From positions 1 through 35,778 of the forward strand of contig JAEUUV010000079.1 of assembly GCA_016787285.1 (NCBI GenBank): DNA of 35,778 nt, read 5' to 3'. A model generated the notes under the pieces. The model was not told the DNA's origin, did not search any database, and was given only the letters and a program-made list of their open reading frames with translations. The stretch's first letter is position 1. Every line of letters begins with the position of its first letter. This stretch comes from Saprospiraceae bacterium. GTDB lineage: Bacteria; Bacteroidota; Bacteroidia; Chitinophagales; Saprospiraceae. A program made the translations under genes and the position numbers. Positions 1-27,223 of the stretch are shown piece by piece.

Positions 1-3000
1 TCCGCCGTGCTCCACGCGTAGGCGGCAAAGTTGCCGCCCACCGTCAGGGTGCCGCTGCTGTTGGTGCAAATGGCCGCCGGTCCGTTGATTGTCGGCGTAG
101 GTAGCGGCTGGGCAGTGGCGGCTAAAGATGCGGTGGCAGTACAGCCGAGCGCGTCGGTTACCGTCACCGCGTAATTTCCGGTAGCATTCACGGTAATATC
201 CGACGTGGTTTCGGTGGTGCTCCACAGGTAGGACACGAAGCCCGGCGTGGCGCTCAGCGCGGTGCTGCTGTTTTCACAAAAGTTCGGATTTCCCGAAACC
301 GCCACCACGGGCGGGTCGGGAATGGTCACGGCCAACTGCCCGGTACCGGTGCAGCCCGAAGCGTCGGTTACCACCACGGTGTACGTGTCGTCGGTTGCCA
401 CGGAAATGGTCGGCGTGGTTTCGCCGGTGCTCCACAGGTAGCCGGCAAAACCGGCGCTTGCTTCGAGCGTGATTTGCCCGTTGCAGGCGTAGGGCAGGGC
501 GGAAACGGTGGGTGTTAGTTGGGTGACCACACTCACACTTTGTGCAGTGCTGCCCGTGCAACCGAATACATCGGTCACCGTCACGCCGAAGTTGCCGGCG
601 GTATTGACCGTGATGGACGGCGTGGTTTCCGCCGTGCTCCACGCGTAGGCGGCGAAGTTGCCGCCCACCGTCAGCGTGCCGCTGCTGTTGGTACAGATAG
701 CCGCCGGACCGTTGATTGTCGGCGTAGGTAGCGGCTGGGCAGTGGCGGCTAAAAATGCGGTGGCGGTACATCCGAGCGCGTCGGTTACCGTCACCCCATA
801 GTTCCCGGTGGCATTCACGGTAATACCCGGCGTGGTTTCCGACGTGCTCCACAGGTAAGACACAAAGCCCGGCGTGGCGCTCAGCGCGGTGCTGCTGTTT
901 GCGCAGAAATTTGGATTTCCCGAAACAGCCACCACAGGCGGGTCGGGTACCGTCACGGCCAACTGCCCGGTGCCGGTACAGCCCGAAGCATCGGTCACTA
1001 CCACCGTGTACGTATTGTCGGTTGCCACGGAAATGCTCGGCGTGGTTTCCCCGGTGCTCCACAGGTAGCCGGCAAAACCGGCGCCCGCTTCGAGCGTGAT
1101 TTGCCCGTTGCAGGCGTAGGGCAGAGCGGAAACGGTGGGTGTTAGTTGGGTGACCACACTCACACTTTGTGCGGTGCTGCCCGTGCAACCGAAAACATCG
1201 GTCACCGTCACGCCAAAGTTGCCGGCGGCATTGACGGTAATGGACGGCGTGGTTTCCGCCGTGCTCCACATGTAGGCGGCGAAATTTCCGCCCACCGTCA
1301 GCGTGCCGCTGCTGTTGGTGCAAATGGCCGCGGGGCCGCTGATCTGCGGTGTGGGCAGCGGTTGAGCGGTGGCGCTCAGCGCAGCCGTGGCCGTACAGCC
1401 AAGCACGTCGGTCACGGTCACCGTGTAAGTACCGGTGGCATTCACGGTAATATCCGACGTGGTTTCGGTGGTGCTCCACAGGTAGGACACGAAGCCCGGC
1501 GTGGCGCTCAGCGCGGTGCTGCTGTTAGCACAAAAATTCGGATTCCCGGAAACCGCCACCACGGGCGGGTCGGGAATGGTCACGGCCAACTGCCCGGTGC
1601 CAGTGCAACCCGAAGCGTCGGTGACCAGAACCGTGTACGTGTCATCGGCGGTCACGGAAATGCTCGGCGTGGTTTCACCGGTGCTCCACAGGTAGCCGGC
1701 AAAACCGGCGCTTGCTTCGAGCGTGATTTGCCCATTGCAGGCGTAGGGCAGGGCAGAAACGGTGGGTGTTAGTTGGGTGACCACACTCACCGATTGCGCG
1801 GTACTGCCCGTGCAACCGAATACATCGGTCACCGTCACGCCGAAGTTGCCGGCGGTATTGACCGTGATGGACGGCGTTGTTTCCGCCGTGCTCCACGAAT
1901 ACGAGGCGAAGTTTCCGCCCACCGACAGGGTGCCGCTGCTGTTGGTGCAGATAGCCGCCGGGCCGCTGATTTGCGGTGTGGGCAGCGGTTGTGCAGTAGC
2001 GGTTAAAGATGCCGTAGCCGTACAGCCGAGCGCGTCGGTTACCGTCACCCCGTAGTTCCCGGTGGCATTCACGGTAATATCCGACGTGGTTTCAGTGGTG
2101 CTCCACAGGTAGGAAACAAAACCCGGCGTGGCGCTCAGCGCGGTGCTGCTGTTAGCACAAAAGTTCGGATTCCCCGAAACAGCCACCACGGGCGGGTCGG
2201 GTATCGTCACGGCCAACTGCCCGGTACCGGTGCAACCCGAAGCGTCGGTGACCAGGACCGTGTACGTGTCATCGGCGGTCACGGAAATGCTCGGCGTGGT
2301 TTCGCCGGTGCTCCACAGGTACGTGGCAAAACCTGCATTTGCCTGCAGCGTGATTTGGCCGTCGCAGGCGTAAGGCAGGGCGGATAGCTGCGGGTTGAGT
2401 GCTGTGACGACGCTCACGGTTTGGGCTGCCGTTCCGGTGCAGCCAAAGGAATTTGTCACAGTTACGGTGTACGTTCCGGCGGCATTGACCGGAATAGACT
2501 GGCTATTTTGCATGTTTGACCAGGCATAACTGGAAAATGCACCCACGGCAGTCAGCGTACCGCTGCTGTTGGCACAAATGGACTGGGGGCCGTCTATGCT
2601 GGTGGTCGGCGCCGGATTTACCGCGAGGTCGAACGACGTTTCAGCGGTGCATCCGTAGCCGTCGGTTGCTGTGACGGTGTAGGTGTTGGCCTGATTGACG
2701 GTGATGCTTGGCCCAACCTGGTTGTTGGACCACACGTAAATCCCGAATCCGGGTGTTGCCTCCAGCGTGGCACTTGCATTTTGGCAAATCACATTTGGCC
2801 CCGAAATACCCACGACAGGCGGGTCGGGAATGTTCACCGCCACTTCGGCTGTGCCGGAACAACCGGTGTTGTCGGTGACTGTCACGGTGTACAGATCGCT
2901 GGTGTTTACCGTGATGGTGGAGGTGGTTTCACTGGTGCTCCACAGGTAGGTGCTGAAACCCGTGCCCGCGTCGAGGGTGATTTGTCCGTTGCAGTTGTAG

Positions 3001-5864
3001 GGCTGCTCGGCGATTTGCGGCTCCAGACTGGAGGAAATGTTGAGCGTTTTCGAAGCGGTACCTGTGCAGCCGTTGGCATCGGTGACGGTCACGGTGTACG
3101 TGCCGGCATTACTCACCGTGATTGAATTGGTCGTTTCGGTGGTGCTCCAGAGGTACGAATCGAAGTTGCCCGGTACGCTGAACGTGGCCGAGCCGCCGGC
3201 GCAGATGGAATTTGGCCCGGCTATGGTCGGTACGGGATTGGGCACGACCTGCACGGGGAACACATCGGTGGCGGTGCAGCCAAAACCGTCGGTGGCCGTT
3301 ACGCCGTAGTTGCCGGCGGCATTGACGGTGATGCTGTTTCCGGTTTGGGCGTTCGACCACACGTAAGCGTTCAACCCCGGCGTCGCCGTCAGCACGGTAT
3401 TGCCGCCCTGGCAGATTTGGCTGTTTCCCGAAATTTCCACCACCGGATCGTCGGGGATGTCGGCAAAAAACGTGTCGGTACCGGTGCAGCCGTTGGCTGC
3501 GGTGACGGTGACCGAGTAGTCGTCATCGGCATTCACAGTGATGGGATTGATCGTCTGGTTGGTATTCCAGAGGTAAGTAGAAAAGCCGGGGCCGGCATTC
3601 AAAACCAATTGGTCATTGCACTGGTATGGCCCGGCCGTAATGTTGGGCTGCGGCGAAGGCAACACGGTGAGCGTGTGCGCGGCGGTACCCGTGCAGCCGG
3701 AAAAATCGGTGACCGTCACCACATAGGTACCCGCGGTGCTCACGGTGATGCTCGGCCCTGTTTCCGCGTTCGACCAGACGTAGGAACCGAAACTGCCCGG
3801 CACTTCGAGCGTGGCCGATTCAGTGGAACAGATACTGGCCGGCCCGTTAATGGTGGGTACCGGCGCGGGCAAAATGCTTATGGTAATCGAAGCAGTAGCG
3901 GTGCAACCGAATCCGTCGGAAGCGGTGACGGTGTAGATACCGGCGTTGAAAACCGTGATGTTCGGCCCGGTTTGGTTGGTAGACCACACGTAGGCATTCA
4001 GGCCCGGCGTGGCTTCCAGCGAACTGTTGTCGCCCTGGCAGAATTCGGTATTGCCCGTGATGGCAACTGCCGGCGGAGCAGGAATTGCAACGACAAAATC
4101 ATCTGTGCCTGAGCAGCCGTTGGCATCGGTGACGGTAACGGTGTAGGTTCCGTCGGCATTTACGGTGATGGTGCTGCCCGATTGGTTGGTGCTCCAGTTG
4201 TACGATGCAAACCCGGTCGGCACGCTCAGGGTGATTTGTCCGTTACAGGCGTATGGCGCGGCGGAAATAATCGGAGTCGGGATGGGGTTTACCGCCAGGG
4301 TGAACGAGGCTGTTCCGGTGCAATTGTTTGCGTCGGTAACCGTCACCGTGTACGTGCCGGCGCCGGATACGTCAATGGACTGGGTGGTTTCGCTGGTGCT
4401 CCACAAATATTCGGCAAAACTCGGGGTAACCGTCAGGGTCCCGGACTGCCCGTCACAAATGGCCGGCGGGCCGGAAATGGTGGGCGTGGGAGCCGGAGTG
4501 CTTGTGACGGCAAATGTGGCCGTATCGGTGCAGCCAAAGGCATCGGTAGCGGTTACGGTGTACGTGCCGGCTGAGTTTACGGTAATCGAGGGGCCGTTTC
4601 CGCTCGGACTCCAGGCGTAGTTGGAAAAACCCGGGGTAGCATCAAGCGTACCGGAGCCGTTGGCGCAGATTTGATTGTCGCCGGTAATATCCACCATGGG
4701 CGGCGGGGGAATATTGACGTCAATCGTGGCCGTGCCCGAGCAACCGTTGGCGTCGGTTACCGTGAGTCCGTAGGTACCGTCGGCGTTTACCGTAATGGAG
4801 TTTCCGGGCTGGTTGGTGCTCCAGTTGTACGATGCAAACCCAGTCGGCACACTCAAGGTAATTTGTCCGTTGCAGGCATACGGCGCGGCGGAAATCACCG
4901 GCACGGGGTTGGGGTTTACCGTCAGGGTAAATGTTGCCGTTCCGGTACAGCCGTTGGCATCGGTGACGGTAACGGTATAGGCGCCGGCGCCGGATACGTC
5001 AATGGACTGGGTGGTTTCGCTGGTGCTCCACAAATATTCGGCGAAACTCGGGGTAACCGTCAGGGTCCCGGACTGCCCGTCGCAAATGGCCGGCGGGCCG
5101 GAAATGGTGGGCGAGGGAGCCGGGTTTTGGGATACCGTGAAGGAATCGGAGTCGGTGCATCCGAAGGCATTGGTTACCGTTACGCTGTAAGTTCCGGCAT
5201 TGGTTACTGTGATGGATTCGCCATTGCCGCCGGTACTCCAGGAATACAGTAAAAACCCCGGAGTGGCTTGTAGTACGGTGGATTCATTCGCACAGATGAT
5301 ATTATTGCCGGTAATGGTCACAACCGGGTCAGGGGGGGCAATGACCGTAACCGCCGTCGTACCGGTACAGCCGTTTGCATCCGTTACCGTTACTTCATAA
5401 GTACCATCGCCATTCGTAAAGATGGTGTCGGTTGTCTGACCGGATGACCAATTGTAGGCTGCGAAGCCGCTTGTTACACTGATGGTGAATGTGCCGTTGC
5501 AGTTGTAAAAAGCGGAAGTGATGGCGGGGATGGGCGCCGGGGATTGAGTTACCGTGTACGTGGCAGTGCCCGTACAGCCGGCGCTGTTGGTGACCGTGAC
5601 GGTATAGGTGCCCGGGCTGTTTACCGTCGTGGATTGGTCTGTGTCATTGTTTGACCACAGGTAGGAATCGAAGTTCTGCGGCACGGTGAGCGTAGTGCTG
5701 CCTCCCTCGCAGAACTGGTTGTTTCCGGTGATGGTGGGCTGCGGCGCCGGTACCACATTGAGCGTGACAGAGCCAAGGGTGCAGCCTTGCGCGAACATCT
5801 CATCGTTGGAAAAGGGAGAAACGGCAATCAGAATGCCGAGCACGGAGGGTAAACTTATCCTCAT
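1..5864 (-). CDS. Giant Ig/PKD-like repeat surface adhesin, N-terminal ~1954 codons (3' end outside window)
   Basis: The minus-strand frame stays in phase from an ATG at 5864 to the left edge, so the C-terminus lies outside the window. A short hydrophobic signal peptide ends near residue 26 (FAQ). After it come about 27 modules of 68-72 residues with the pattern xxCxxxxxxLxxxxGFxxYxWSTxETTxxITVxxxGxYTVTVTDxxGCTG, each with two cysteines and one core Trp. Three module types (A, B, C) alternate and form a 209-residue super-repeat. In Bacteroidota such arrays are extracellular stalks of gliding or adhesion proteins exported by T9SS, usually ending in a CHU_C/type B or type A sorting domain; that end cannot be checked here. 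A stop lies two codons upstream, so the start is fixed. It is transcribed away from ompA. The coding assignment is strong. Adhesion as the function is inferred from architecture. Confidence 0.9.
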   Translation of the reverse strand, partial: MRISLPSVLGILIAVSPFSNDEMFAQGCTLGSVTLNVVPAPQPTITGNNQFCEGGSTTLTVPQNFDSYLWSNNDTDQSTTVNSPGTYTVTVTNSAGCTGTATYTVTQSPAPIPAITSAFYNCNGTFTISVTSGFAAYNWSSGQTTDTIFTNGDGTYEVTVTDANGCTGTTAVTVIAPPDPVVTITGNNIICANESTVLQATPGFLLYSWSTGGNGESITVTNAGTYSVTVTNAFGCTDSDSFTVSQNPAPSPTISGPPAICDGQSGTLTVTPSFAEYLWSTSETTQSIDVSGAGAYTVTVTDANGCTGTATFTLTVNPNPVPVISAAPYACNGQITLSVPTGFASYNWSTNQPGNSITVNADGTYGLTVTDANGCSGTATIDVNIPPPPMVDITGDNQICANGSGTLDATPGFSNYAWSPSGNGPSITVNSAGTYTVTATDAFGCTDTATFAVTSTPAPTPTISGPPAICDGQSGTLTVTPSFAEYLWSTSETTQSIDVSGAGTYTVTVTDANNCTGTASFTLAVNPIPTPIISAAPYACNGQITLSVPTGFASYNWSTNQSGSTITVNADGTYTVTVTDANGCSGTDDFVVAIPAPPAVAITGNTEFCQGDNSSLEATPGLNAYVWSTNQTGPNITVFNAGIYTVTASDGFGCTATASITISILPAPVPTINGPASICSTESATLEVPGSFGSYVWSNAETGPSITVSTAGTYVVTVTDFSGCTGTAAHTLTVLPSPQPNITAGPYQCNDQLVLNAGPGFSTYLWNTNQTINPITVNADDDYSVTVTAANGCTGTDTFFADIPDDPVVEISGNSQICQGGNTVLTATPGLNAYVWSNAQTGNSITVNAAGNYGVTATDGFGCTATDVFPVQVVPNPVPTIAGPNSICAGGSATFSVPGNFDSYLWSTTETTNSITVSNAGTYTVTVTDANGCTGTASKTLNISSSLEPQIAEQPYNCNGQITLDAGTGFSTYLWSTSETTSTITVNTSDLYTVTVTDNTGCSGTAEVAVNIPDPPVVGISGPNVICQNASATLEATPGFGIYVWSNNQVGPSITVNQANTYTVTATDGYGCTAETSFDLAVNPAPTTSIDGPQSICANSSGTLTAVGAFSSYAWSNMQNSQSIPVNAAGTYTVTVTNSFGCTGTAAQTVSVVTALNPQLSALPYACDGQITLQANAGFATYLWSTGETTPSISVTADDTYTVLVTDASGCTGTGQLAVTIPDPPVVAVSGNPNFCANSSTALSATPGFVSYLWSTTETTSDITVNATGNYGVTVTDALGCTATASLTATAQPLPTPQISGPAAICTNSSGTLSVGGNFASYSWSTAETTPSITVNTAGNFGVTVTDVFGCTGSTAQSVSVVTQLTPTVSALPYACNGQITLEASAGFAGYLWSTGETTPSISVTADDTYTVLVTDASGCTGTGQLAVTIPDPPVVAVSGNPNFCANSSTALSATPGFVSYLWSTTETTSDITVNATGTYTVTVTDVLGCTATAALSATAQPLPTPQISGPAAICTNSSGTLTVGGNFAAYMWSTAETTPSITVNAAGNFGVTVTDVFGCTGSTAQSVSVVTQLTPTVSALPYACNGQITLEAGAGFAGYLWSTGETTPSISVATDNTYTVVVTDASGCTGTGQLAVTVPDPPVVAVSGNPNFCANSSTALSATPGFVSYLWSTSETTPGITVNATGNYGVTVTDALGCTATAFLAATAQPLPTPTINGPAAICTNSSGTLTVGGNFAAYAWSTAETTPSITVNTAGNFGVTVTDVFGCTGSTAQSVSVVTQLTPTVSALPYACNGQITLEASAGFAGYLWSTGETTPTISVATDDTYTVVVTDASGCTGTGQLAVTIPDPPVVAVSGNPNFCENSSTALSATPGFVSYLWSTTETTSDITVNATGNYAVTVTDALGCTATASLAATAQPLPTPTINGPAAICTNSSGTLTVGGNFAAYAWSTA
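1..5864 (-). repeat. 627-bp in-frame tandem super-repeat, about 9.3 copies
   Basis: One anchor (the codons for the TTGGSG-like shadow motif, read on the plus strand) recurs at 304, 931, 1558, 2185, 2812, 3439, 4066, 4693 and 5320, always exactly 627 bp apart. Copies between 1 and about 2380 are nearly identical at the nucleotide level. Copies from 2400 to 5864 have diverged, yet spacing has not changed by a single base. A second nearly identical pair lies at about 4183-4500 and 4810-5127, again 627 bp apart. The unit encodes 209 residues, three Ig/PKD-like modules of about 69, 68 and 72 residues. Confidence 0.95.
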
Positions 5865-6154: not shown

Positions 6155-7639
6155 TTATTTATTTTCAAAATCCAGCACCAGTTCAAACTCCACGCGGCGG
6201 TTTTTGGCCCGTCCGGCGCTGCGTTTGTTGTCGCCGATGGGCTTGGTGTCGCCGAAGCCGGCGGAGCGCAGGCGCTCGGCCTTGATGCCGCGGTACACGA
6301 AGTAGTCGTAGCAGGTTTTGGCACGGTCGGTGGACAGCGCGAGGTTGCGTTCAGGCTCACCCACGTTGTCGGTATGGCCGCGGATGTCAAGTTTGTAGTC
6401 GGGATATTGCTTCATGATCCCCACGATCTCGTCCAGAATTTTGTACGACGAGGACTTGAGTTCGGTTTTGCCGGTCTCAAACTGCACGTTTTTCATGGCG
6501 AACTCGAGTCGCTCTTTCGTCTCTTTTTTCACTTCCGGGCAGCCGTAGTTGGTAGCCGGCCCCACAGAATTCGGGCACTTGTCGAGGTTGTCGGCCACAC
6601 CGTCGCCGTCGGAGTCGGGGCATCCGTTGAACGGCCCTTTTGCATCCGGGCAGGGGTCTTTGTCGTCGGCTACGCCGTCGCCGTCGCGGTCGGTCACGGG
6701 CGGGCAGCCACCGGTGGCAGCCGTTCCGGGTTCGCGCGGGCATTTGTCGTCCTTGTCGGCCACGCCATCAGAGTCGGCATCCGGGCATCCTTTGACCGTA
6801 CCGGCTTCTGTCGGGCAGTCATCGTCCTTGTCGGCCACGCCGTCGCGGTCGCGATCCGGGCAACCTTTGACCGTACCGGCTTCCGTCGGACAATCATCGT
6901 CTTTGTCGGCCACACCGTCTTCGTCTTTGTCGGGACAGCCGTTGGTGGTGGACGCTCCCGGCTGTGTCGGGCAGTCGTCGTTGTCGTCGGCGATACCGTC
7001 ATTGTCGTAGTCGGGGCAACCGAATGCCGCAGGACGGCCAGGCTTGTCGGGGCACTGGTCGGTAGCGTCGGGTACGCCGTCTTTGTCGCGATCGGACAGT
7101 TCCTGCGGTTTGGGTGGGGCCTTGTGCAACAGGTACACGAAGCCTACGCCGAGTTGGATGTTGTCGCGTTTTTCAGCCGAGGCCTTGCGGTACTCCAACT
7201 GGGCATTGATGAACGCATACTGGGAAATCCGGAAATTGGCGCCTACGCCGAACGGAAACTGCGCGTGGCCGTTTTCAAACTCTTCCAGTGCGTAGCCGGC
7301 ACCGGCAAAAGCATAAGGCGACACCTTGGCCTCGCTGCTGATTTTTCCGAGTTGCACGACCAGGTCGAGGCTGCTGGTCACGGTGTTTCCCGTTACGCCG
7401 GGCAGTTTGGCGATGCCCATTTTCAGCGGCAAACCGATGTTCAGGAACGGTGCCACATTGCGTACATAGCCGATTTCGAAGCCTTCGCCGAGTTTGAAAT
7501 CTTCGTCGTTCAGGGTGCCATAGTCAAAGAAATTGAGCTTGGCATAAACGGCGTTTGGATTTTCCCGGTTTTGGGCCGTGGATGCCGTGGGTGTCAGTAC
7601 CCACAGCGAAAGAAGGAGTAAAAAGGAAAACTTTCTCAT
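6155..7639 (-). CDS. OmpA-family outer-membrane protein with seven TSP3 repeats
   Basis: The 494-residue protein should anchor the outer membrane to peptidoglycan. Residues 1-22 are a signal peptide (hydrophobic run, then TASTAQ). Residues about 25-180 look like a small outer-membrane beta-barrel. Residues about 183-368 hold seven TSP3-type calcium-binding repeats of the form DxDxDGVADxxDxCP. Residues about 385-490 are an OmpA/MotB domain with GHTDNVG and NLALSTDRA, giving the diaminopimelate-contacting Asp (about 424) and Arg (about 439). I chose the ATG at 7639 because the 14 residues upstream of it do not fit a signal peptide. This architecture is common in Bacteroidota as an abundant porin-like protein. 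The exact physiological role is inferred. The gene has its own terminator downstream. Confidence 0.93.
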   Translation of the reverse strand: MRKFSFLLLLSLWVLTPTASTAQNRENPNAVYAKLNFFDYGTLNDEDFKLGEGFEIGYVRNVAPFLNIGLPLKMGIAKLPGVTGNTVTSSLDLVVQLGKISSEAKVSPYAFAGAGYALEEFENGHAQFPFGVGANFRISQYAFINAQLEYRKASAEKRDNIQLGVGFVYLLHKAPPKPQELSDRDKDGVPDATDQCPDKPGRPAAFGCPDYDNDGIADDNDDCPTQPGASTTNGCPDKDEDGVADKDDDCPTEAGTVKGCPDRDRDGVADKDDDCPTEAGTVKGCPDADSDGVADKDDKCPREPGTAATGGCPPVTDRDGDGVADDKDPCPDAKGPFNGCPDSDGDGVADNLDKCPNSVGPATNYGCPEVKKETKERLEFAMKNVQFETGKTELKSSSYKILDEIVGIMKQYPDYKLDIRGHTDNVGEPERNLALSTDRAKTCYDYFVYRGIKAERLRSAGFGDTKPIGDNKRSAGRAKNRRVEFELVLDFENK

Positions 7640-7876
7640 TGTGTTGAATTTTTTTTCGGGGTCAAACAAAAAGGATACCAACTAACCTGAATCGGGTAAC
7701 ACCCCGTGCCAATGTTTGCAGCACTATGGTTGTAAGTCGGCTATCTGACCAAATTGGGTGTTGGCCCCTTTTTCATTCCGAAAGAATATGTCCACGCTAC
7801 GGTGGGTATCCTCCCATTCATCTCGGCCATCGCAGAGCGGACGGATTCCTTCGGAATAACAAATGCAGCCAGCAGC
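7640..7876. other. Noncoding stretch upstream of the OmpA gene with a 12-bp imperfect inverted repeat
   Basis: No convincing gene is seen. ATTCCGAAAGAA (7775-7786) and TTCCTTCGGAAT (7846-7857) are inverted copies with one mismatch, about 60 nt apart. They lie about 140-220 nt upstream of the OmpA start. No exact TAnnTTTG box was found for that gene. Confidence 0.4.
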
Positions 7877-9329: not shown

Positions 9330-9532
9330 GGCCATCAAAAATTACGGTTTTGACAATTGTGTACAGCGTCGTTCTCAGGACAATGCCGGATATTTATGCC
9401 CGCTTTACACGAACTGCCTGTTGGACGCGGCATAGAACAAACAGCTGCGCTTTCCGTTGTGAAAATTTTTCCGGGAGCGTATTGCGTCCGATGAGCCGTT
9501 CTCTTTTTTCGATTAAACCTGCCGTGTTGATT

Positions 9533-12500
9533 ATGCGAACTCTACTTGTTATTGCCTGCTGGCTTGGCTGTTTTGCCCTTGCGCCGGCCTTTTCCCAAAA
9601 TAACCAACCCGTCCGTTTCGATTGGGGACCGGAGTTTTTCCCCGAAAATTTTCAGACGATCCGGAAGAATCCCGCCGTATCGCCGGACGAACTTGTCCTG
9701 GGCTACTACTTCCGGTACATCCAGTGCGCCGAAATCCCGTCGGCACGCCTGCGTACCGAAGCCGAAAGCGCCGGACTCCGGTTCATTGGTTATGTGTCGT
9801 TTGGCGCATATCTGGTTGCCATTCCGGAAAATTTCGACCTGAATCGTCTGGCGCCGCTCGGCGTACGCAGCGTAGTGCCGGTGCGATCCGAGTGGAAACT
9901 GGCCAGAAGCCTGCGCGAGAAGCCCTGGGGCGAATGGGCCGTGCAGGGCGACATGGTCGAAGTATACCTGCAACTTTACCCGCAAATCCGCATCCCCGAC
10001 GGAGCGGAAATGTGCCGAAGCCGCGGCATCACGGTGGTGGAAGAAGGCAACCAGAACGGTATGCTGCATGTGCGGTTGCGCAAAGACGCCCTTGCGGCTA
10101 CGGCGGCTCTGCCCTTCGTGCGTACCCTCGAGCTGTTGCCGGCGCCGCCAAAACCCGACGATACCGGCGGCCGCGCCCTGCACCGAGCCAACCTGCTCGA
10201 CGTGGATCATCCTTCGGGCAACAAATACGACGGCACCGGCGTAGCCGTGCTCGTGCGCGACGACGGCCCGCTTGGCCCGCACATTGACTTTCAGGGCCGG
10301 AATACCGACATTTTCAGCGCCAACGACGTGTTCGACAGCAACCACGGCGACGGTGTGGCGGGAATTCTTGCCGGAGCCGGCAACCTCGACCCGAATATGC
10401 GCGGTATGGCTACGGGTGCGAAAATTTTTACGATTCGCTACCAGTCCAATTTTCAGGACAACACCATGGACCTGCACTACGATGAAAACGTGACAATTAC
10501 CAATTCCTCCTACGCGGAAGACTGCAACGAGGGCTACACGACCAACACGCAGACCGTCGAAACACAACTTTTTGAAAATCCGACGCTGATGCATGTGTTT
10601 TCTGCAGGAAATGCCGGCACGAGCAACTGCGGTTATGGCGCAGGAGCTACCTGGGGCAACATCACCGGCGGACACAAAATGGCGAAAAATGCCCTGGCCG
10701 TAGCCAACCTGCTGCCCGATGCCACATTAGTGAACAGCTCCAGCCGCGGCCCCGCCCACGACGGGCGCCTCAAACCCGACATTTCCGCCAACGGAAACGG
10801 TCAAAGTTCTACGGATTACAACAACCTCTACCGGGTGTTCAGCGGCACCTCTGCCGCTGCGCCCGGCATAGCCGGCTGCATGGCTCAACTCACGCAGGCA
10901 TACAAGGAAACACACAGCGGCGAGCAACCCGCCGCCGCCCTGCTGAAAGCGGCCATGCTCAATACCGCCAACGACCTCGGCAATACCGGCCCCGACTTCC
11001 GATTCGGCTGGGGACACGTGAATGCCTGGCGCGCACACCAACTTTTGTCCAATAATCGCTGGCAGGAATATTATGCCGAACAAGGCAGTCAGGGACTACA
11101 CGCCATACCCATTCCTCCCGGTACCCGGCAAGCCCGAATCATGCTGTACTGGTCGGATCCGCCTGCAAACGTAGGTGCAGCGCGTGCGCTCGTCAACGAC
11201 CTCGACCTGGAGGTAGTAGCCCCCGACGGCAGCACGGTGCATCTGCCCTGGAAACTCGACCCCACGCCCGACCCGACCATTCTGAACACCCCTGCCGGAA
11301 AAGGGCGCGATTCGCTCAACAACGTGGAGCAGGTGGCGATCAACGACCCGGCGCCGGGCATTTACACCGTACGAGTGCGCGGGCAGGAAGTGCCGATGGG
11401 GCCACAGCCGTACTTCATCGTTTGGGAATTTTACGACGACGGCGTCAAACTCACCTATCCGGCCGGCGGCGAGGGCCTCGTGCCCGGCGAAGTTTGCCGA
11501 ATCCAGTGGGACGCCCTGGGCAATGACGGAAATTTTACGCTGCAATATTCCCCCGACAACGGCGCGCTCTGGGCGCAAATCGGCACCCCGGCAGGCGATG
11601 TCCGTATGTTCGACTGGACGGTGCCCAACACCGTGAACGGACGTATTCGCGTGCAAATCAACCGTGGCGGCCAACGAGATAGCACCGATTTCCCGCTGAC
11701 GATTGCACCGGTGCCCGCGAATTTGCAGGTGAAACAGGTTTGTCCCGATTCGATGACGGTAGCCTGGTCGCGCGTGAGCGACACCTTGCGCTACGACGTG
11801 TATTTGCTCGGCGACAAGTACATGGAAATTGTGGGGAATACCGCCGACACCTTGTTCACCTTGCCGATCCAAAACGCGGGTCGGGAGCAGTGGTTTTCCG
11901 TTCGGGCAGCCGGCACGGCCGGGCTGGCCGGGCGGCGCGCCATCGCAACGTCCTGGGCGGGTGGCCTCAAGGAGTGTCAACAGCCGGATGACCTGGCGCT
12001 GAAAAATGTGCTTGGGCCTACGGTGACCGACATATCATCCACAGTATCGTGCAGCCCGATTCCGGCCACCGTTTCCATCCAGGTCGCCAACGAGGGGCTG
12101 AATCCGGTTAGTGGAGCAGTGGCGAATTACCAGTTGAACAACGCCCCGGTTGTCACCGAACCCTTGCCCGATCTGGCGCCGAATACAAGTCTGGATTTCA
12201 CGTTTACTCAACCGATACTGTTCACCCAGAACGGACAAAATACGTTGCGGGTCTGGTTTACCTACGGAGCGGAGGATGTTTTTTTCAACGACACTATCGT
12301 ACAGAGGTACACAGCGATTGTTGAATCCACAAATCAATTTTTTTCCGAAGGTTTTCAGATTCCGATTTTTCCGCCTCAGGGCTGGGCGGTGGGAAATCCG
12401 GACGGCAACATCACCTGGGACCGAACGGCGTCCAACGTGACCGGTCCCGGCGGCCAGGGTACCCGCGCCACCTTTCTAAACTGCCTGAATTACTCTTTGC

Positions 12501-13630
12501 AAGGCGAAGAGGACTATCTGTACCTGCCGCCGATCAACCTGAACAACTTGCCAAATCCGGGCATTCTGTTTGACCTGGCGCACGCCAATTACGACTCGGA
12601 CTACTACGACAGCCTGCGCGTGGAGGTGTTTGCCAACTGCGATCTGAATAGCATACCGGTGACGGTTTGGGGTAAAGGCGGCCCTGCCCTGGCCACAAGG
12701 CCACCGCTTTCTTCTTCATTTTCCCCCACCAATGCCGGTGAGTGGCGTAAGGAGGGATTCTCGCTCAAGGATTTTGAAGGGCAAACGGTCATCGTGCGTT
12801 TTGCCTCGGTGAATGACTACGGCAATAACATTTTTTTGGACAACATCGCCCTTGTGGAGTATGCGTTGCCACAACCCGTGGCTTCGATAGTGTCGTCGGC
12901 GGACACCCTGTGCCGGCTGGATACCATCCTGTTCAGTTCCGCATCGGTTGGCTCCAATACCACGTACAACTGGACCTTCGGCGCAAGCGCCCAACCGGCC
13001 ACTGCCGCCGGCATCGGGCCGCATGCAGTGCGCTACCTGACGGGCGGAGACAAGTCGGTGCGCCTCATCGTCAGCAATGCCCTGGGGTCGGACACCGCTT
13101 TTTACACGGTTCCGGTGCTGGGACTGGCGTCGGCCAATTTTACCTGGACGACCAACTCCGCTACGGTGACTTTTGCCAACACCAGCACTAACGCGCAAGC
13201 CTACCTGTGGGATTTTGGCGACGGAAACACCAGCACGGCGCCCAATCCGGTGCACAGCTACGCCGCGCCGGGAAATTACACCGTGACCCTGACGGCCACC
13301 AACTCGTGCAGCACCATGTCGAGCACGCGGACACAAAATGTCAATCTGACGTTTGTCGGCACCGAAGTGCCGGACGGGATCAGCATGGCACGGGTTCAGC
13401 CCAATCCTACTTCGGGAGATTTCAGTGTCGAGTTGTCTGCTACGTCGGCCCTCCCCTTGCAAGTTCGCCTGTATGATGCGCGAGGGAAATTGATAAAAAC
13501 GGTACAAACAGCGCTGCAAAGCGGAACCATGCGGATACCCTTCGAGGGGCTGGACTTGCCCGCCGGGATGTATCAGGTTCACATTCAAACCAGCATGGGC
13601 CTGCGAACGTTGAGCGTGGCCGTGCAATGA
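9533..13630 (+). CDS. Secreted subtilisin-like (S8) serine protease with FN3, adhesion-type, PKD and T9SS sorting domains
   Basis: This 1365-residue protein has a signal peptide (about 1-22, ending FSQ), a probable propeptide, and an S8 domain at about 215-520. The catalytic triad reads Asp243 (VRDDG), His271 (NHGDGVAG) and Ser440 (SGTSAAAPG), with oxyanion Asn360 (SAGNAG). Then come an FN3-like module (about 728-810), a CARDB-like module (about 824-925), a MAM/cleaved-adhesin-like beta-sandwich (about 932-1112), a PKD domain (about 1199-1269; YLWDFGDGN) and a type A T9SS sorting domain (PNPTSGDF to the end). It should be exported by T9SS and attached to or released from the surface. The frame extends upstream to 9350, but the ATG at 9533 begins the signal peptide. 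No clear promoter was found. The substrate is unknown. Confidence 0.92.
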   Translation: MRTLLVIACWLGCFALAPAFSQNNQPVRFDWGPEFFPENFQTIRKNPAVSPDELVLGYYFRYIQCAEIPSARLRTEAESAGLRFIGYVSFGAYLVAIPENFDLNRLAPLGVRSVVPVRSEWKLARSLREKPWGEWAVQGDMVEVYLQLYPQIRIPDGAEMCRSRGITVVEEGNQNGMLHVRLRKDALAATAALPFVRTLELLPAPPKPDDTGGRALHRANLLDVDHPSGNKYDGTGVAVLVRDDGPLGPHIDFQGRNTDIFSANDVFDSNHGDGVAGILAGAGNLDPNMRGMATGAKIFTIRYQSNFQDNTMDLHYDENVTITNSSYAEDCNEGYTTNTQTVETQLFENPTLMHVFSAGNAGTSNCGYGAGATWGNITGGHKMAKNALAVANLLPDATLVNSSSRGPAHDGRLKPDISANGNGQSSTDYNNLYRVFSGTSAAAPGIAGCMAQLTQAYKETHSGEQPAAALLKAAMLNTANDLGNTGPDFRFGWGHVNAWRAHQLLSNNRWQEYYAEQGSQGLHAIPIPPGTRQARIMLYWSDPPANVGAARALVNDLDLEVVAPDGSTVHLPWKLDPTPDPTILNTPAGKGRDSLNNVEQVAINDPAPGIYTVRVRGQEVPMGPQPYFIVWEFYDDGVKLTYPAGGEGLVPGEVCRIQWDALGNDGNFTLQYSPDNGALWAQIGTPAGDVRMFDWTVPNTVNGRIRVQINRGGQRDSTDFPLTIAPVPANLQVKQVCPDSMTVAWSRVSDTLRYDVYLLGDKYMEIVGNTADTLFTLPIQNAGREQWFSVRAAGTAGLAGRRAIATSWAGGLKECQQPDDLALKNVLGPTVTDISSTVSCSPIPATVSIQVANEGLNPVSGAVANYQLNNAPVVTEPLPDLAPNTSLDFTFTQPILFTQNGQNTLRVWFTYGAEDVFFNDTIVQRYTAIVESTNQFFSEGFQIPIFPPQGWAVGNPDGNITWDRTASNVTGPGGQGTRATFLNCLNYSLQGEEDYLYLPPINLNNLPNPGILFDLAHANYDSDYYDSLRVEVFANCDLNSIPVTVWGKGGPALATRPPLSSSFSPTNAGEWRKEGFSLKDFEGQTVIVRFASVNDYGNNIFLDNIALVEYALPQPVASIVSSADTLCRLDTILFSSASVGSNTTYNWTFGASAQPATAAGIGPHAVRYLTGGDKSVRLIVSNALGSDTAFYTVPVLGLASANFTWTTNSATVTFANTSTNAQAYLWDFGDGNTSTAPNPVHSYAAPGNYTVTLTATNSCSTMSSTRTQNVNLTFVGTEVPDGISMARVQPNPTSGDFSVELSATSALPLQVRLYDARGKLIKTVQTALQSGTMRIPFEGLDLPAGMYQVHIQTSMGLRTLSVAVQ

Positions 13631-16085: not shown

Positions 16086-17105
16086 TCAACGCTTCTGCTT
16101 TTCCAATGCTTTCTTCTTCTCCTTTTCCAGTTTCCGGAAATACCCCCGGAGCAAAAAGTTGTGTTTCAGTGCTTCCATGTCTTCGCTGAAACGCCCGGTA
16201 CCCACCTCGATATTTTCCAGAATAGCCCGCACACGGGCTGCGGCGCTGGAGTCCCGCAGCAGCAGATGTGCCGTGCCCGGCCCCTCCTGAATATCCGCCT
16301 GAACGCTGCTCACCATGCCGGCCATATTCTGCACCAGTGTGTCCATGGATTGCACCAATTGGCCGGCCTGACTTTCCACGGCTTGCAGTTTGCAGGCTGC
16401 CTGATTCAGTTCATACGCCAGTGTGGTGTCGCGGAGCAGGGCGCCCACAGTGCCCTCGCCGTTCCGGACGTCGCGCATCACCGTTTGCAAATCCGTTGCT
16501 GTAGCCGATGCCGCAGCCGTAGTCTGGCGCAGGTTGACCAAAGCGGCTTTCAGGTTGTGTGACAGGCCGACGTCGTCAAGCAAGCCGGCCAATGCAGCGC
16601 TTTTGTTGATCCGGTCAATGGTCTGGATCAGGCCCTCGGAAATTTCGAGCACGTTGCGGTTGGTCTGGTCGAGGGTGTGCAGCATTTCGGACGTGCTCAC
16701 ATCTTTTTCAGACTGGATCACATCGCCCGGTTCGATCAGCGGAGCCGGTTCTTTCGAGGGTAGCAGGTTGACCACGCGGTTGCCCACCAGCCCGTCGGTA
16801 CCAATGGCAGCCACGGTGTTTTTGCGCACCACCTGGCGCATGTTATCGTCGAGTCGCAAAGCGACTTCCACGAGGGTGTCGTTCACCAGCGTGACCGATT
16901 CGACCACACCAACCACGATGCCCGATACCCGGACGTTGCCGCCGGGCGTCAGGCCATTGACGTTTTCGAAGCGGGCAGTCACCAAAAAACGATTGGAAAA
17001 AAGGCTCTGGTCTTTGCCCAGCATGTACAAAAACGCAATGAGCAGCGCCAGGCCGGCCAGGACAAAAATGCCCAGTTTGATGTTGTCGGAAGTGCGATTG
17101 GCCAT
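16086..17105 (-). CDS. mlaD: MlaD/MCE-family lipid-binding protein
   Basis: The 339-residue protein has one N-terminal transmembrane helix (about 10-29) and an MCE domain (about 36-115; FENVNGLTPGGNVRVSGI and GLVGNRVVNL are typical). A long C-terminal helical part (about 145-310) has heptad-like runs, followed by a Lys-rich end. It should sit in the periplasm bound to the MlaEF complex and shuttle phospholipids between the two membranes. It starts 6 nt after the mlaF stop, so it is the third gene of a tight operon. The helical extension is typical of Bacteroidota and longer than in E. coli MlaD (183 aa). Confidence 0.92.
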   Translation of the reverse strand: MANRTSDNIKLGIFVLAGLALLIAFLYMLGKDQSLFSNRFLVTARFENVNGLTPGGNVRVSGIVVGVVESVTLVNDTLVEVALRLDDNMRQVVRKNTVAAIGTDGLVGNRVVNLLPSKEPAPLIEPGDVIQSEKDVSTSEMLHTLDQTNRNVLEISEGLIQTIDRINKSAALAGLLDDVGLSHNLKAALVNLRQTTAAASATATDLQTVMRDVRNGEGTVGALLRDTTLAYELNQAACKLQAVESQAGQLVQSMDTLVQNMAGMVSSVQADIQEGPGTAHLLLRDSSAAARVRAILENIEVGTGRFSEDMEALKHNFLLRGYFRKLEKEKKKALEKQKR

Positions 17106-17111
17106 GGTATT

Positions 17112-17849
17112 TCAGTCAAAAAATGCGCGAATGTTCGGGTCTTTGGAGGTACTCAGTTCCTGATAGGTGCCGGTTGCGCAGCATTTACCTTCCAGCAGGA
17201 TGGCGATGCGTTCGGCGGCGTGCCGGGCCAGTTTCATATCGTGCGAAATCACCAGCGCGGAGGTTTGGTACTCGTGTTGTACCGCCTTGATAAGTTCGAT
17301 TATTTCCATGCCGGTGATCGCGTCAAGGCCGGTGGTGGGTTCGTCGTACAGGATGATGTCGGGTTTGAGGATAAGCGTGCGGGCCAGCGCGATGCGTTTG
17401 CGCATACCACCCGACAATTCAGCGGGCATCATGTCCACGGTATGCGCCAGACCCACACTCGTCAGCACCTTGTGTACCAGGTCATTCACCTCGTTTTGTT
17501 CCACGTTCATCCAGTGCCGGCGCAGGGGAAATTCGAGATTTTCCCGCACGGTCATGGAGTCGTACAGGGCATTGCTCTGAAACAAAAAACCCACACGGGC
17601 GCGCAGTTGATCCAGTTCCATATACGTCAGGTCGGGTACGTTTTGTCCCAGCACCACGATACGCCCGGCATCGGGGCGCAGCAGTCCGATGATGCACTTG
17701 ATGAGCACGGATTTACCCGAACCGGACTTGCCCAGCACCACGAGGTTTTCGCCCCGGTAAAGCGTCAGGTCAAAATGATCAAGCACCACATTGGCGCCGA
17801 AGGCCTTGCAAAGGCCTTCCACTTCGATCACCGGTTCGTTGTTTTTCAT
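17112..17849 (-). CDS. mlaF: MlaF-type ABC transporter ATP-binding protein
   Basis: The 245-residue cytosolic ATPase drives the MCE lipid transport complex. Walker A is GKSGSGKS (about 39-46), the signature is LSGGMRKR (about 145-152), Walker B is IILYDEPTTGLD (about 165-176) and the switch His is in VISHD. LSGGMRKR followed by ALARTL is the usual sequence of MlaF/Mkl ATPases. It follows mlaE by 7 nt and precedes mlaD by 6 nt, which supports coexpression as one complex. Confidence 0.94.
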   Translation of the reverse strand: MKNNEPVIEVEGLCKAFGANVVLDHFDLTLYRGENLVVLGKSGSGKSVLIKCIIGLLRPDAGRIVVLGQNVPDLTYMELDQLRARVGFLFQSNALYDSMTVRENLEFPLRRHWMNVEQNEVNDLVHKVLTSVGLAHTVDMMPAELSGGMRKRIALARTLILKPDIILYDEPTTGLDAITGMEIIELIKAVQHEYQTSALVISHDMKLARHAAERIAILLEGKCCATGTYQELSTSKDPNIRAFFD

Positions 17850-17856
17850 GGTGTTA

Positions 17857-18627
17857 TCAAATTTTCCAGATCAGCGCCGCCACCTGTACCGCCAGCAGAT
17901 CGAGGATAAAAATCAGTACCGAGGCCATGACCACCGCCGAGTTGGCCGAACGGCCTACGCCTTCGGTGCCTTTGGTGGAATAGTAGCCCTTGTAACAGCC
18001 CACAATACCCACGGCAAAGCCGAAAAAGAAGGTTTTGATGATGGCCGGAATGGCATCGTAGTAGTCCAGATTGTCCAGCACTTGCTCCATAAACAGCCGG
18101 AAACTCAGCACTTCGTACATGTTCACCCCGAGGTACGAACCGTACAGGGAAATAGCGTCGGCCAGAATGACAAGCACCGGCAGCATGAGCGTGGCGGCCA
18201 GTGTGCGCGTCACTACGAGGTATTTGAAGGGGTTGGTTCCGGATACCTCCATGGCGTCAATTTGTTCGGTAACGCGCATCGAACCAAGTTCGGCGCCAAT
18301 GCTGGAGCCGATTTTTCCGGCAAAAATCAGCCCCGTGATGACCGGTCCGATCTCCCGGATGATGGCGATGCACACCATAGCGGGAATCATTTTTTCCACC
18401 CCGTAGCGCACCATGCTCGGGCGGAGTTGCATAGTCATCACCAAGCCCATGATGAATGCCGTCAGCCCTACCAGCGACAGCGATTTGTATCCGATCACAA
18501 AACACTGGCGCACCAGTTCCTCCCACTCGTACCGCGGGCGGAAGGCTTCCCGGAAAAAACGCGCTGTGAACCGCGATAGCGCGCCGACCTCCTGAAAAAA
18601 CGATGCCCGAAACACGCCGAAACGCAT
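17857..18627 (-). CDS. mlaE: MlaE-type permease of the phospholipid transport complex
   Basis: This integral membrane permease, 256 residues from the ATG at 18627, has about five hydrophobic helices. Family landmarks are REIGPVITGLIFAGKIGSS, GAELGSMRVTEQIDAMEVSG and GRSANSAVV near the C-terminus. It is the first gene of mlaE-mlaF-mlaD. The frame extends to 18717, but the extra 30 residues are not MlaE-like and that ATG sits inside the oppositely oriented promoter box at 18713-18720, so I prefer 18627. TACCTTTA at 18686-18679 on the minus strand could be its -7 box (one mismatch). Confidence 0.9.
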   Translation of the reverse strand: MRFGVFRASFFQEVGALSRFTARFFREAFRPRYEWEELVRQCFVIGYKSLSLVGLTAFIMGLVMTMQLRPSMVRYGVEKMIPAMVCIAIIREIGPVITGLIFAGKIGSSIGAELGSMRVTEQIDAMEVSGTNPFKYLVVTRTLAATLMLPVLVILADAISLYGSYLGVNMYEVLSFRLFMEQVLDNLDYYDAIPAIIKTFFFGFAVGIVGCYKGYYSTKGTEGVGRSANSAVVMASVLIFILDLLAVQVAALIWKI

Positions 18628-18712
18628 AGTGTCATGCTTGAGTAAGGATAAGAACCAAACGACTTTTTTGGGTTGCCGTAAAGGTAACACAAGCCATTCC
18701 AACCAGACAAGG

Positions 18713-18720
18713 TACATTTG
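18713..18720 (+). promoter_or_regulatory. -7 box of the SGNH hydrolase gene
   Basis: TACATTTG matches TAnnTTTG exactly and lies 12 nt before the ATG at 18733, giving a very short leader. No TTG is found at the normal spacing. It lies back to back with the mla operon start. Confidence 0.45.
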
Positions 18721-25042: not shown

Positions 25043-26362
25043 ATGAAGTTAGTGAATATTCACACCTTAAGTTTGGCATTATGGGCGGCGGCAGTTGGCT
25101 TACCCCCTACCCTCTATGCCCAAACCATGACCTTGCAGCAATGCGTTGAAGCGGCTTTGTCCAACAACAAAAGCCTACTGGTCGGCAGGAACAACCTCCG
25201 CCTCTACCCGCTCAAACAACAGGAGGCCAAGTCGAATCTTTGGCCAAAGGCAACGGCGACGGCGGACTACAAGTTTTTCACCAATCTGCCCTACCAACTT
25301 TTGCCTTTGTCGGTATTCAACGGTCCCGAAGGACAATACAAAGAGGCACAATTCGGTGTCCCGCACAATCTCGGTGTTAACGTGCAGATGGCGATGCCGC
25401 TCTACCAACCGCAAATCAAAACGGGCATTCGGGGGGCTGAAATTGCCGCGGAATTGGGCGATTTACAGGTTGAAAAAAGTGAAGAACAGGTCATTTTCGA
25501 GGTGACGAGCCTGTATTACAATGCCAAGATTTTACAACACCAGATACTTTTCGTGGACGGCAACCTGGCCAACACCGGGCGGCTGCTCGGCACCATGCAA
25601 TTGTTGCGGACACAGGGCCTGGCAAAAGGAACGGATGTTGGCAAAATAGAACTGCTGCAGGCGCAACTGCAATCCCTACACAATCAATTGAACGGCAAAT
25701 TGGCACAGGTAATTAACGGCCTCAATTTTTTCATGGGCAAAGAGTTGAATTCGCCTTTGTCCATTTCCAAGGAAATAGACGCAGAGAGCGGCAGGGATTA
25801 CCCCGTTTCGCCATCGGTGGACGTCCGCATGGCGCAGGTTCAAAACCGCCTGCTGGCCAATGAACTGGATCTGCTGAAAAAATCAAAATTGCCCACCGTT
25901 TCACTCGTTGCCAGCTACGGTTTGACGGGCTTCGGATATTTCAAACAACCCGAACCATTCTTCAAAATATTCCCCATAGGCTTCATCGGCGTACAGGTCG
26001 CCTACCCGATCTGGAACAAAGCCACCCGCTATAAAACGGCACAGAAAGACGTGGAAATAGCGAGCAACCTGCTGCAATCCGAACTTATCACGGCACAGTA
26101 CGAGCTCCAAATCGCCAATGCCGTGTTGCAAAAAAATACAGCACTGCAGAATATTCCCGTCCTGCGGCAACAAATAGCATGGGCCGATTCAGTCTACCAG
26201 CAAACGCTTGCACAGCAACAGCAAGGCACGGCGACCCTGGCCGATATTTTATTGGCGGACAATGCGCTGCGGGAAGCGCAAACCAGCTACCTCAGTGCGC
26301 TGGTCGAGTATTGGAAAGCCGATCTGGAATGGAAAAAAGCATCCGGTTCAATCAAAAATTAA
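25043..26362 (+). CDS. TolC-like outer-membrane efflux channel
   Basis: The 439-residue outer-membrane factor has a signal peptide (about 1-27, ending LYAQ). Two repeated outer-membrane-efflux-protein halves follow: MTLQQCVEAALSNNKSLLVGRNNL at the start of the first, and later YELQIANAVLQKN with QQQQGTATLADILLADNALREAQTSYL, the usual helix-turn before the C-terminus. It should form the trimeric exit duct for the RND pump encoded next. Its first codons contain the second operator copy (25047-25064). It ends 3 nt before the membrane-fusion gene. Confidence 0.93.
   Translation: MKLVNIHTLSLALWAAAVGLPPTLYAQTMTLQQCVEAALSNNKSLLVGRNNLRLYPLKQQEAKSNLWPKATATADYKFFTNLPYQLLPLSVFNGPEGQYKEAQFGVPHNLGVNVQMAMPLYQPQIKTGIRGAEIAAELGDLQVEKSEEQVIFEVTSLYYNAKILQHQILFVDGNLANTGRLLGTMQLLRTQGLAKGTDVGKIELLQAQLQSLHNQLNGKLAQVINGLNFFMGKELNSPLSISKEIDAESGRDYPVSPSVDVRMAQVQNRLLANELDLLKKSKLPTVSLVASYGLTGFGYFKQPEPFFKIFPIGFIGVQVAYPIWNKATRYKTAQKDVEIASNLLQSELITAQYELQIANAVLQKNTALQNIPVLRQQIAWADSVYQQTLAQQQQGTATLADILLADNALREAQTSYLSALVEYWKADLEWKKASGSIKN
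25047..25064 (-). promoter_or_regulatory. Predicted TetR operator, copy 2 (inside the TolC-like gene start)
   Basis: The minus strand reads TGTGAATATTCACTAACT, identical to copy 1 except for one base. Its core GTGAATATTCAC is a perfect 12-bp palindrome. It occupies codons 2-8 of the channel gene. TAAGTTTG at 25068-25075 just downstream fits a -7 box and might be an internal promoter. Confidence 0.55.
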
Positions 26363-26365
26363 GGC

Positions 26366-27223
26366 ATGAAAAAGATTTTGTCCTACCTGATACCCGCCGT
26401 CATTTTGGTCGGCATTTTCGGCGGCATTGCGCTGAAACTAAAAAAGAACAAAACCGTAGCCGAAGAGCGGGTCTTTCATTTCAACCCCGAGGAAACCCCA
26501 GTTTTGGCGGACAGTATTCTTTCCAAAACGGCGTCAAGCGATGCGGATGACCTTGTTTTCACAGGTACGTTTGAGCCGTTTCGGGAAACAAAAATCAGCG
26601 CTGAAATACAAGGCAAGATCAATCATATTTCGGTAGATGCCGGTAGCATAGTGACCAAAGGGCAAACCCTTGTGCAATTGGACGATGCGCTTTTGCAACT
26701 GCAATTGCAGTCGGTGGAGGTGCAAATCGAGGGCCTGACCGCCGACGTGAACCGCTATTCCATTTTGGCAAAAGCCGACGCGGTGCAGGGCGTTCAGTTG
26801 GAGAAAGCCCAATTGGGCCTGAAATCCGCCCAGATACAACGGGCGACCATTCAGGAGCAGATCAATAAAAGCGCGATCAAGGCCCCGTTCGGCGGGGTCA
26901 TTTTTGCCAAGTTGAATGAAGTGGGCGGCTTTGCGGCGCCCGGGGTGCCGCTTGTGCACCTGCTCGAAATTGATCAAATGAAATTCACGGTAAACGTGGC
27001 TGAAAATGATCTGAAATATTTCAAAATCGGGCAATCCCATAACATCACGGCGGATGTTTTTCCCGATAAAAAAATCATGGGCAAGGTCAGCATAATAGCC
27101 GGCAAAGCCAATGTGGGCAACGGTTTTCCCGTACAATTCACCGTCAACAACTTTCCAAATCATGCGCTGCGCGCGGGCATGTTTGGAAAAATCGAATTAT
27201 CCAGCATTGATCAACGGCTATGA
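26366..27223 (+). CDS. RND membrane-fusion (periplasmic adaptor) protein, short form
   Basis: The 285-residue adaptor has an uncleaved N-terminal membrane helix (about 5-23). A lipoyl/barrel-sandwich half follows (KISAEIQGKINHISVDAGSIVTKGQTLVQLDD), then a short coiled-coil hairpin (about 112-165), the second lipoyl half (KAPFGGVIFAKLNEVGG) and a beta-barrel domain (about 200-280). It stops right after the barrel (RAGMFGKIEL), so it lacks the C-terminal membrane-proximal domain that takes most family members past 350 residues. It shares ATGA with the RND gene. Confidence 0.9.
   Translation: MKKILSYLIPAVILVGIFGGIALKLKKNKTVAEERVFHFNPEETPVLADSILSKTASSDADDLVFTGTFEPFRETKISAEIQGKINHISVDAGSIVTKGQTLVQLDDALLQLQLQSVEVQIEGLTADVNRYSILAKADAVQGVQLEKAQLGLKSAQIQRATIQEQINKSAIKAPFGGVIFAKLNEVGGFAAPGVPLVHLLEIDQMKFTVNVAENDLKYFKIGQSHNITADVFPDKKIMGKVSIIAGKANVGNGFPVQFTVNNFPNHALRAGMFGKIELSSIDQRL

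Follow-up and report, generated by a model that had tools for sequence, protein, structure and literature searches.

Expansion in units of several domains has been described for nebulin (by seven), fibronectin-3 (by four) and cadherin repeats (by five) (PMC1553488). Such repeats show an autocorrelation peak at a fixed domain number, reflect internal duplication, and their most similar copies are those in the same phase. These features are shared by the repeat-array protein described here, which is encoded on contig C336 of a Saprospiraceae bacterium (C336 array). This protein is, however, bacterial and probably exported by the T9SS, and its unit of three modules is common to arrays of related species. 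The A-band super-repeats of titin (7 and 11 domains) are also a higher-order repeat of Ig-type domains, in titin together with FnIII domains. The 11-domain repeat is reported to be helical, which fits thick-filament organisation (PMC3859903). In the C336 family, by contrast, length is not strict across relatives, and a partner comparable to the thick filament is known for titin only.

The Periscope Proteins (SasG, Rib, Sgo_0707) resemble the C336 array in having tandem surface domains in varying copy number, and this variation is attributed to intragenic recombination (PMC8201768). Unlike in Periscope Proteins, neighbours are dissimilar in the C336 array, and near-identity (up to 96%) occurs between modules that are three apart. 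Also, the variation in number seen in the C336 family (21-30 modules, seven relatives) is between species, not between strains. The best sequence match among solved chains is GhpA (grappling hook protein A) from Aureispira sp. CCB-QB1 (PDB 9flp and seven more). The profile match (E 2.6e-61) extends over many weak stretches, the best having an i-E of 4.6e-8, and the single-sequence match has an E-value of 8.8e-31. The aligned stretches of GhpA are longer than the C336 modules and are read as modules of about 83 residues, the two proteins being compared by sequence only and an A-B-C triplet being evident only for C336. Heptameric grappling hooks secreted by the T9SS have been described for an ixotrophic predator, in a passage that does not name GhpA (PMC11205867).

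The stretch of DNA analysed (the window, 35,778 nucleotides) is the entire contig C336 from a draft genome of 5.56 Mb in 345 contigs. The features of the array gene and of the rest of the window are listed in Table 1. The array has 28 modules, each centred on a Trp and the last incomplete, that make up nine full super-repeats (SR) and 37 residues of a tenth. Each SR is composed of the module types A, B and C. Judged by their sequence, the modules are of about 70 residues and Ig/PKD-like. PF22352 (PKD-like) passes its cut-off (60.0 vs 27, with 3 stretches). PF24312 (62.3 vs 27) and PF06832 (45.3 vs 26.8) pass for the whole protein, with no stretch being significant alone. Pfam Ig_7 (PF19081, CHU_C-associated Ig) stays below the gathering cut-off (whole protein 25.0 vs 27.3 bits), and an NCBIfam scan of the protein returned nothing at cut-off. 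All 27 Trp-Trp spacings follow the pattern 69, 70, 70, which occurs nine times. In all 27 full modules, Cys1 and Cys2 are separated by 45 (A), 44 (B) or 45 (C) residues, and the distance from Cys2 to the next Cys1 is 25 in all 26 linkers. The one-residue difference between the types resides in the Cys1-to-Trp stretch of module B. Each module has two Cys, which are probably paired, so that disulfides would form within modules. The N-cap carries a motif of the type C-x-GLG-S; a scan of 22 other proteins matched a similar cap in 8 of them, and three of six further arrays (G047, G053, L085) matched as well. The cap looks like the final strand of a module, and might form a cross-link or have a partner complete it.

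Table 1. Features of the repeat-array gene and of the remainder of the window.
Feature	Position	Strand	Remark
Repeat-array protein gene, 5' part	3..5864	-	1954 aa, single ORF; 3' end lost at contig start
N-terminal signal-peptide-like stretch	5787..5864	-	About 26 aa; boundary set by inspection
N-cap	5757..5786	-	One Cys without partner in its own module
Super-repeat 1 (A1, B1, C1)	5130..5756	-	
Module A1	5550..5756	-	69 aa; first of A class
Module B1	5340..5549	-	70 aa as cut; first of B class; Cys1-to-Trp one residue shorter
Module C1	5130..5339	-	70 aa as cut; first of C class
Super-repeat 2	4503..5129	-	
Super-repeat 3	3876..4502	-	Close likeness to SR2 confined to A and most of B
Super-repeat 4	3249..3875	-	
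Super-repeat 5	2622..3248	-	Every module nearest SR4 of G022 in module tree
Super-repeat 6	1995..2621	-	B and C cluster with tail copies, A does not
Super-repeat 7	1368..1994	-	
Super-repeat 8	741..1367	-	
Super-repeat 9	114..740	-	
Super-repeat 10, start	3..113	-	37 aa of module A10, cut by contig end
OmpA-family protein with thrombospondin type 3 repeats	6155-7681		Upstream gene
75-bp tandem repeat	6747-6919		In OmpA-family gene
Subtilase with PKD and Por_Secre_tail	9350-13630		
MlaD/ABC/MlaE set	16086-18717		
OEP and AcrB-type efflux proteins	25043-26362, 27220-30312		
Sortilin/BNR protein	31431-34340		

A super-repeat of three modules had been proposed from anchors at 304 to 5320 in steps of 627, without any indel between the copies. 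Both points were borne out: all nine anchors are in register, and full modules of the same type align without gaps in 108 of 108 pairs (36+36+36). Self-identity of the protein is 0.70 at a lag of 209, compared with 0.31 at lags of 70 and 139, and is 0.06-0.07 at 208 and 210. The top self-similarity is thus at a lag of several domains, as in higher-order domain repeats. Among the 27 full modules, mean identity is 0.57-0.60 for pairs of the same type and 0.40-0.45 for different types, and for every one of them (27/27) the closest module is located a multiple of three away. The peak at lag 209, together with the gapless pairs, indicates that the three-type order is real. The copies are unequally related. 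Protein identity is 50-58% among SR1-5 (SR2/SR3: 74%), 45-54% between SR1-5 and SR6-9, and 77-79% between SR6 and SR7-9, while SR7-9 share 91-93% among themselves (DNA: 87-90%).

The three-module unit is common to related arrays of the same genus. The SR profile matches 17 of the 42 genomes of the genus, that of C336 included (E up to 1e-60), and relatives in named genomes are nearly all from Bacteroidota, many of them from Saprospiraceae. For comparison, 23 proteins were scanned for Cys and Trp; 15 were classed as A-B-C by lag and phase, while 8 were not. The A-B-C set comprises the C336 array and 14 others, complete or in pieces, that come from nine same-genus genomes. The counts of phase and length cover these 15 proteins only, a class that was thus picked partly on the trait itself. 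With HMMs trained on the C336 array alone, 195 of 227 transitions in the 14 same-genus arrays or pieces follow the A-B-C order. HMMs built from six arrays, excluding the one being scored, gave the same phase and made slips visible in G053, G020 and G008:C80; their labels assume a phase starting at A, and when one of the close relatives G008:C81 and G023:C389 is left out, the other is still in the training set. In a FastTree of 201 modules from 9 arrays (out of 283 modules and 16 arrays; one array is unlabelled, and many branches are weak), there are 8 changes of A/B/C state versus 101 of genome. In this tree, all three modules of C336 SR5 are nearest SR4 of G022, while SR7-9 and the B and C modules of SR6 are nearest one another. 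By phase and tree, the A-B-C phase is placed before the split of the related species, and most module relationships keep the unit.

Among arrays of this domain class, units of several modules are a minority habit in the sample surveyed. In 94 arrays, the peak corresponds to one module in 61 cases, clearly to two in 5 and clearly to three in 16; one array each peaks at four and at six (the latter, L083, is a piece from the A-B-C family), and 10 are unclear. Members of the A-B-C family account for 11 of the 16 arrays that peak at three. The sample was drawn from paralogues in the own genome, relatives and named genomes, similarity to the A-B-C protein being the basis of collection; an ORF needed 8 or more spacings to be included, and the duplicates L024, L084 and L089 were the only ones removed. 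Other higher-order periods were encountered: 251 residues (three of 84) in L061 (G000:C298), 150 (two of 75) in L046 (G000:C52), and 222 and 226 residues in L071 (G026:C2) and L143, respectively. In G012:C33 (L075), the relative is split between ORFs of 549 and 641 aa, and an internal stop occurs in one match. The open frames in G020:C9 and G016:C498 that match the array protein have 9578 and 8678 aa.

The triplet also dominates the relationships from which growth of the array can be read. In the DNA of the C336 array, identity is 0.70 at a lag of 627 versus 0.44 at 210 and 417. Identical runs of at least 30 nt occur only at 627 (60 nt), 1254 (89 nt) and 1881 (32 nt); shorter ones of 29 and 24 nt are found at four and five modules. 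In G047, runs of 24 nt or more occur at 1 and 5 modules. When 17 arrays were analysed for the nearest module within the same array, it was a multiple of three away in 258 of 305 cases over 14 A-B-C arrays, that of C336 included, versus 17 of 71 in three single-module arrays. Three of the 14 follow the triplet badly: G020 (3/16), G008:C80 (8/18) and G053 (13/21). Seven relatives with both array ends have 21, 21, 25, 25, 27, 28 and 30 modules, as counted by the Cys/Trp detector. Since these totals are not all the same modulo 3, not every change in copy number was a multiple of three. The original prediction was that duplication always occurs in units of three. This holds as the rule, but the phase slips in G053, G020 and G008:C80 and the module totals speak against "always", and that stricter version was rejected.

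The tracts of high identity differ in where they start and where they end within the unit: between SR2 and SR3, the tract covers A and most of B, and between SR6 and SR7, it covers most of B and C. Such varied limits match what unequal exchange or conversion would leave behind, whereas a cassette copied between fixed ends would not be expected to produce them. Free drift of the sequence, which had also been postulated, is contradicted by dN/dS values of 0.10-0.23 between SRs of C336 for the seven pairs whose dS is below 1. Values reach 0.39 in saturated pairs and are undefined in 2 of 36. The low ratios imply that the sequence is constrained.

We consider it probable that the C336 protein is a surface stalk of the T9SS type, in which the triplet perpetuates itself by in-register recombination while its length is held mainly by the fold. 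As phase and tree show, the three module types predate the split of the related species. DNA of modules of one type is much more similar than that of neighbours, so that intragenic homologous recombination would pair mostly at multiples of 627 bp, and copies would be gained and homogenised mostly as triplets, as the patterns suggest. The fold presumably tolerates few indels, which would keep module length nearly fixed, mainly as a property of each module and not of the triplet. The C336 array is a clean example of a known growth mode of repeat proteins and not a new kind of system. Its merit is that species of one genus can be compared to see how many domains are duplicated at a time, and that the same genus also has single-module arrays built of similar modules. 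Thus, it becomes testable why repeat proteins duplicate several domains at once, by a mutational ratchet or by selection against misfolding.

Selection against misfolding is at the core of an alternative that we regard as possible but doubtful. It holds that neighbours are kept unlike to avoid misfolding, while near-identical copies three apart permit recombinational changes in length. At the same low level of confidence, the A-B-C order can be taken as an evolved compromise, with nearly all neighbours unlike enough to fold safely and near-identical DNA at every third domain, through which the stalk could lengthen or shorten by recombination: Periscope-like, yet obeying the neighbour-divergence rule. 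According to this rule, neighbours in large multidomain proteins stay under 50% identity, a habit that Periscope Proteins breach (PMC8201768). In an analysis of 12 arrays, adjacent modules are more than 50% identical in 12 of 215 pairs from nine A-B-C arrays, as against 63 of 66 from three single-module arrays. Neighbours in the C336 array have an average identity of 43%. In its tail, they are 41-49% identical, whereas modules three apart share 87-96%. Selection against aggregation has been suggested as a factor that may promote the duplication of several domains at once, but the same source holds that duplication of several domains is itself the main contributor to the trend (PMC1553488). Indeed, any repeat of several modules automatically yields such a pattern. 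Moreover, single-module arrays of the same genus have a mean neighbour identity of 69-76%; as they break the rule, it is not obligatory. These rule-breaking arrays provide a ready-made comparison for this alternative.

The original prediction attributed the constant length to selection on the spacing, with a fixed helical or fibre repeat of 209 residues. The length of the triplet would then be the functional unit, as proposed for titin super-repeats. We consider this unlikely, although part of the evidence points in its direction. Across 14 A-B-C relatives, 59 of 241 Cys-Cys lengths depart from 45/44/45, mostly by one residue, but only 14 of 227 linkers depart from 25. Linkers are thus stricter than modules, which speaks for some constraint on the spacing between modules, at the level of the single module. 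The A-B-C order, moreover, is conserved between species of the genus. Among same-phase pairs with 50-60% identity, length is equal in 62 of 62 pairs in C336, in 113 of 151 in the A-B-C relatives and in 76 of 138 in three single-module arrays; at 40-50% identity, the corresponding figures are 20/20, 222/335 and 6/21 (pairs are not independent). At equal identity, A-B-C relatives are accordingly stricter than single-module arrays, with C336 being the strictest. The looser length of the single-module arrays counts in favour of the original prediction, but may be due to the pooling of odd modules. A degree of constraint linked to the triplet is therefore possible.

The C336 array has no length change in 7.28 substitutions per site. 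In trees of 12 relatives, however, 43 changes of the Cys1-Cys2 length were found per 109 substitutions per site, so that just 2.9 changes are expected for C336 (P(0) 0.057), or 2.4 when the three loosest arrays are left out (P(0) 0.09). These P values are rough, being derived by parsimony on small trees; the 13 arrays considered exclude the L075 pieces, and the counts refer to Cys1-Cys2, not to linkers. G014 comes close in strictness, with deviations in 1 of 21 lengths and 0 of 20 linkers. The C336 array is therefore at the strict end of the range but not clearly outside. Relatives in the same phase vary in length: the peak lag is 210 in one member of the A-B-C family and 211 in others, and it is 222 in another family of the order. 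Finally, single-module arrays of the same genus, devoid of the A-B-C phase, run mostly at 70 or 72: G006 has 11 of 14 spacings at 70, and G016:C87 and G005:C45 have 20 of 26 and 25 of 28 at 72. A nearly fixed length thus does not need a triplet. Taken together, selection on a spacing of 209 residues as such does not find support, while the greater strictness of the A-B-C arrays stands. A strict fibre length of 209 residues was rejected or at least weakened, and a constant repeat length, taken by itself, says little about a fibre period.

It is highly improbable that the regular array is an assembly artefact, a collapse or mis-join of short reads: the contig does end inside the array and SR7-9 are 87-90% identical in DNA, but copies differ at many synonymous positions (pS 0.25-0.35 among SR7-9), and an identical phase is found in relatives whose ORFs have both ends. 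The copy number in C336 is, however, unreliable for these same two reasons, the contig end and the similarity of SR7-9.

Export and anchoring of the stalk are deduced from relatives because the 3' end of the C336 gene is missing. In a search for this end, the first 1300 bases of the contig were matched elsewhere only by pieces of at most 94 bases (40 of 84 candidates scored). The last 500 residues were scanned in six relatives having the 3' end. CHU_C is at or above cut-off in five of them and the SprB repeat is present in four; TIGR04131 passes its cut-off in one, and five match it at E below 0.001. The relatives share these C-terminal features with SprB and the type B CTD proteins of the T9SS (PMC9143113). 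On this basis, export of the C336 protein by the T9SS and its attachment to the outer membrane are probable. PorP-like proteins are believed to tether type B CTD proteins to the cell surface (PMC9143113). The C336 family differs in that no SprB match was reported within the C336 array, and that no PorP-like gene was detected among ten neighbouring genes tested in seven relatives (seven on the 3' side and three on the 5' side). The gene 3' of the array gene codes for a proprotein-convertase P-domain in four of seven relatives (L067, L069, L164, L165).

Concerning function, the stalk would likely serve in projecting or binding at a distance. The parts scanned yielded no recognisable ligand-binding domain of a known kind, and the designation as adhesin is a guess. 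A search by title or abstract opening, with subscription literature mostly outside its reach, returned no published description of the C336 protein.

Within the own genome, matches to this protein class are found near the starts of contigs C15, C65, C207, C217 and C336 (at bases 20, 3, 15, 6 and 3, respectively). With all five matches starting no more than 20 bases into the contig, genes of this kind are a probable cause of assembly breaks. Among relatives in named genomes, an array of 74-residue modules of this class is encoded by a frame of 3985 residues in L110 (CP034120.1), titled Glaciecola amylolytica. This is the sole title among the named relatives that we take to lie outside Bacteroidota, and a transfer between phyla is possible.
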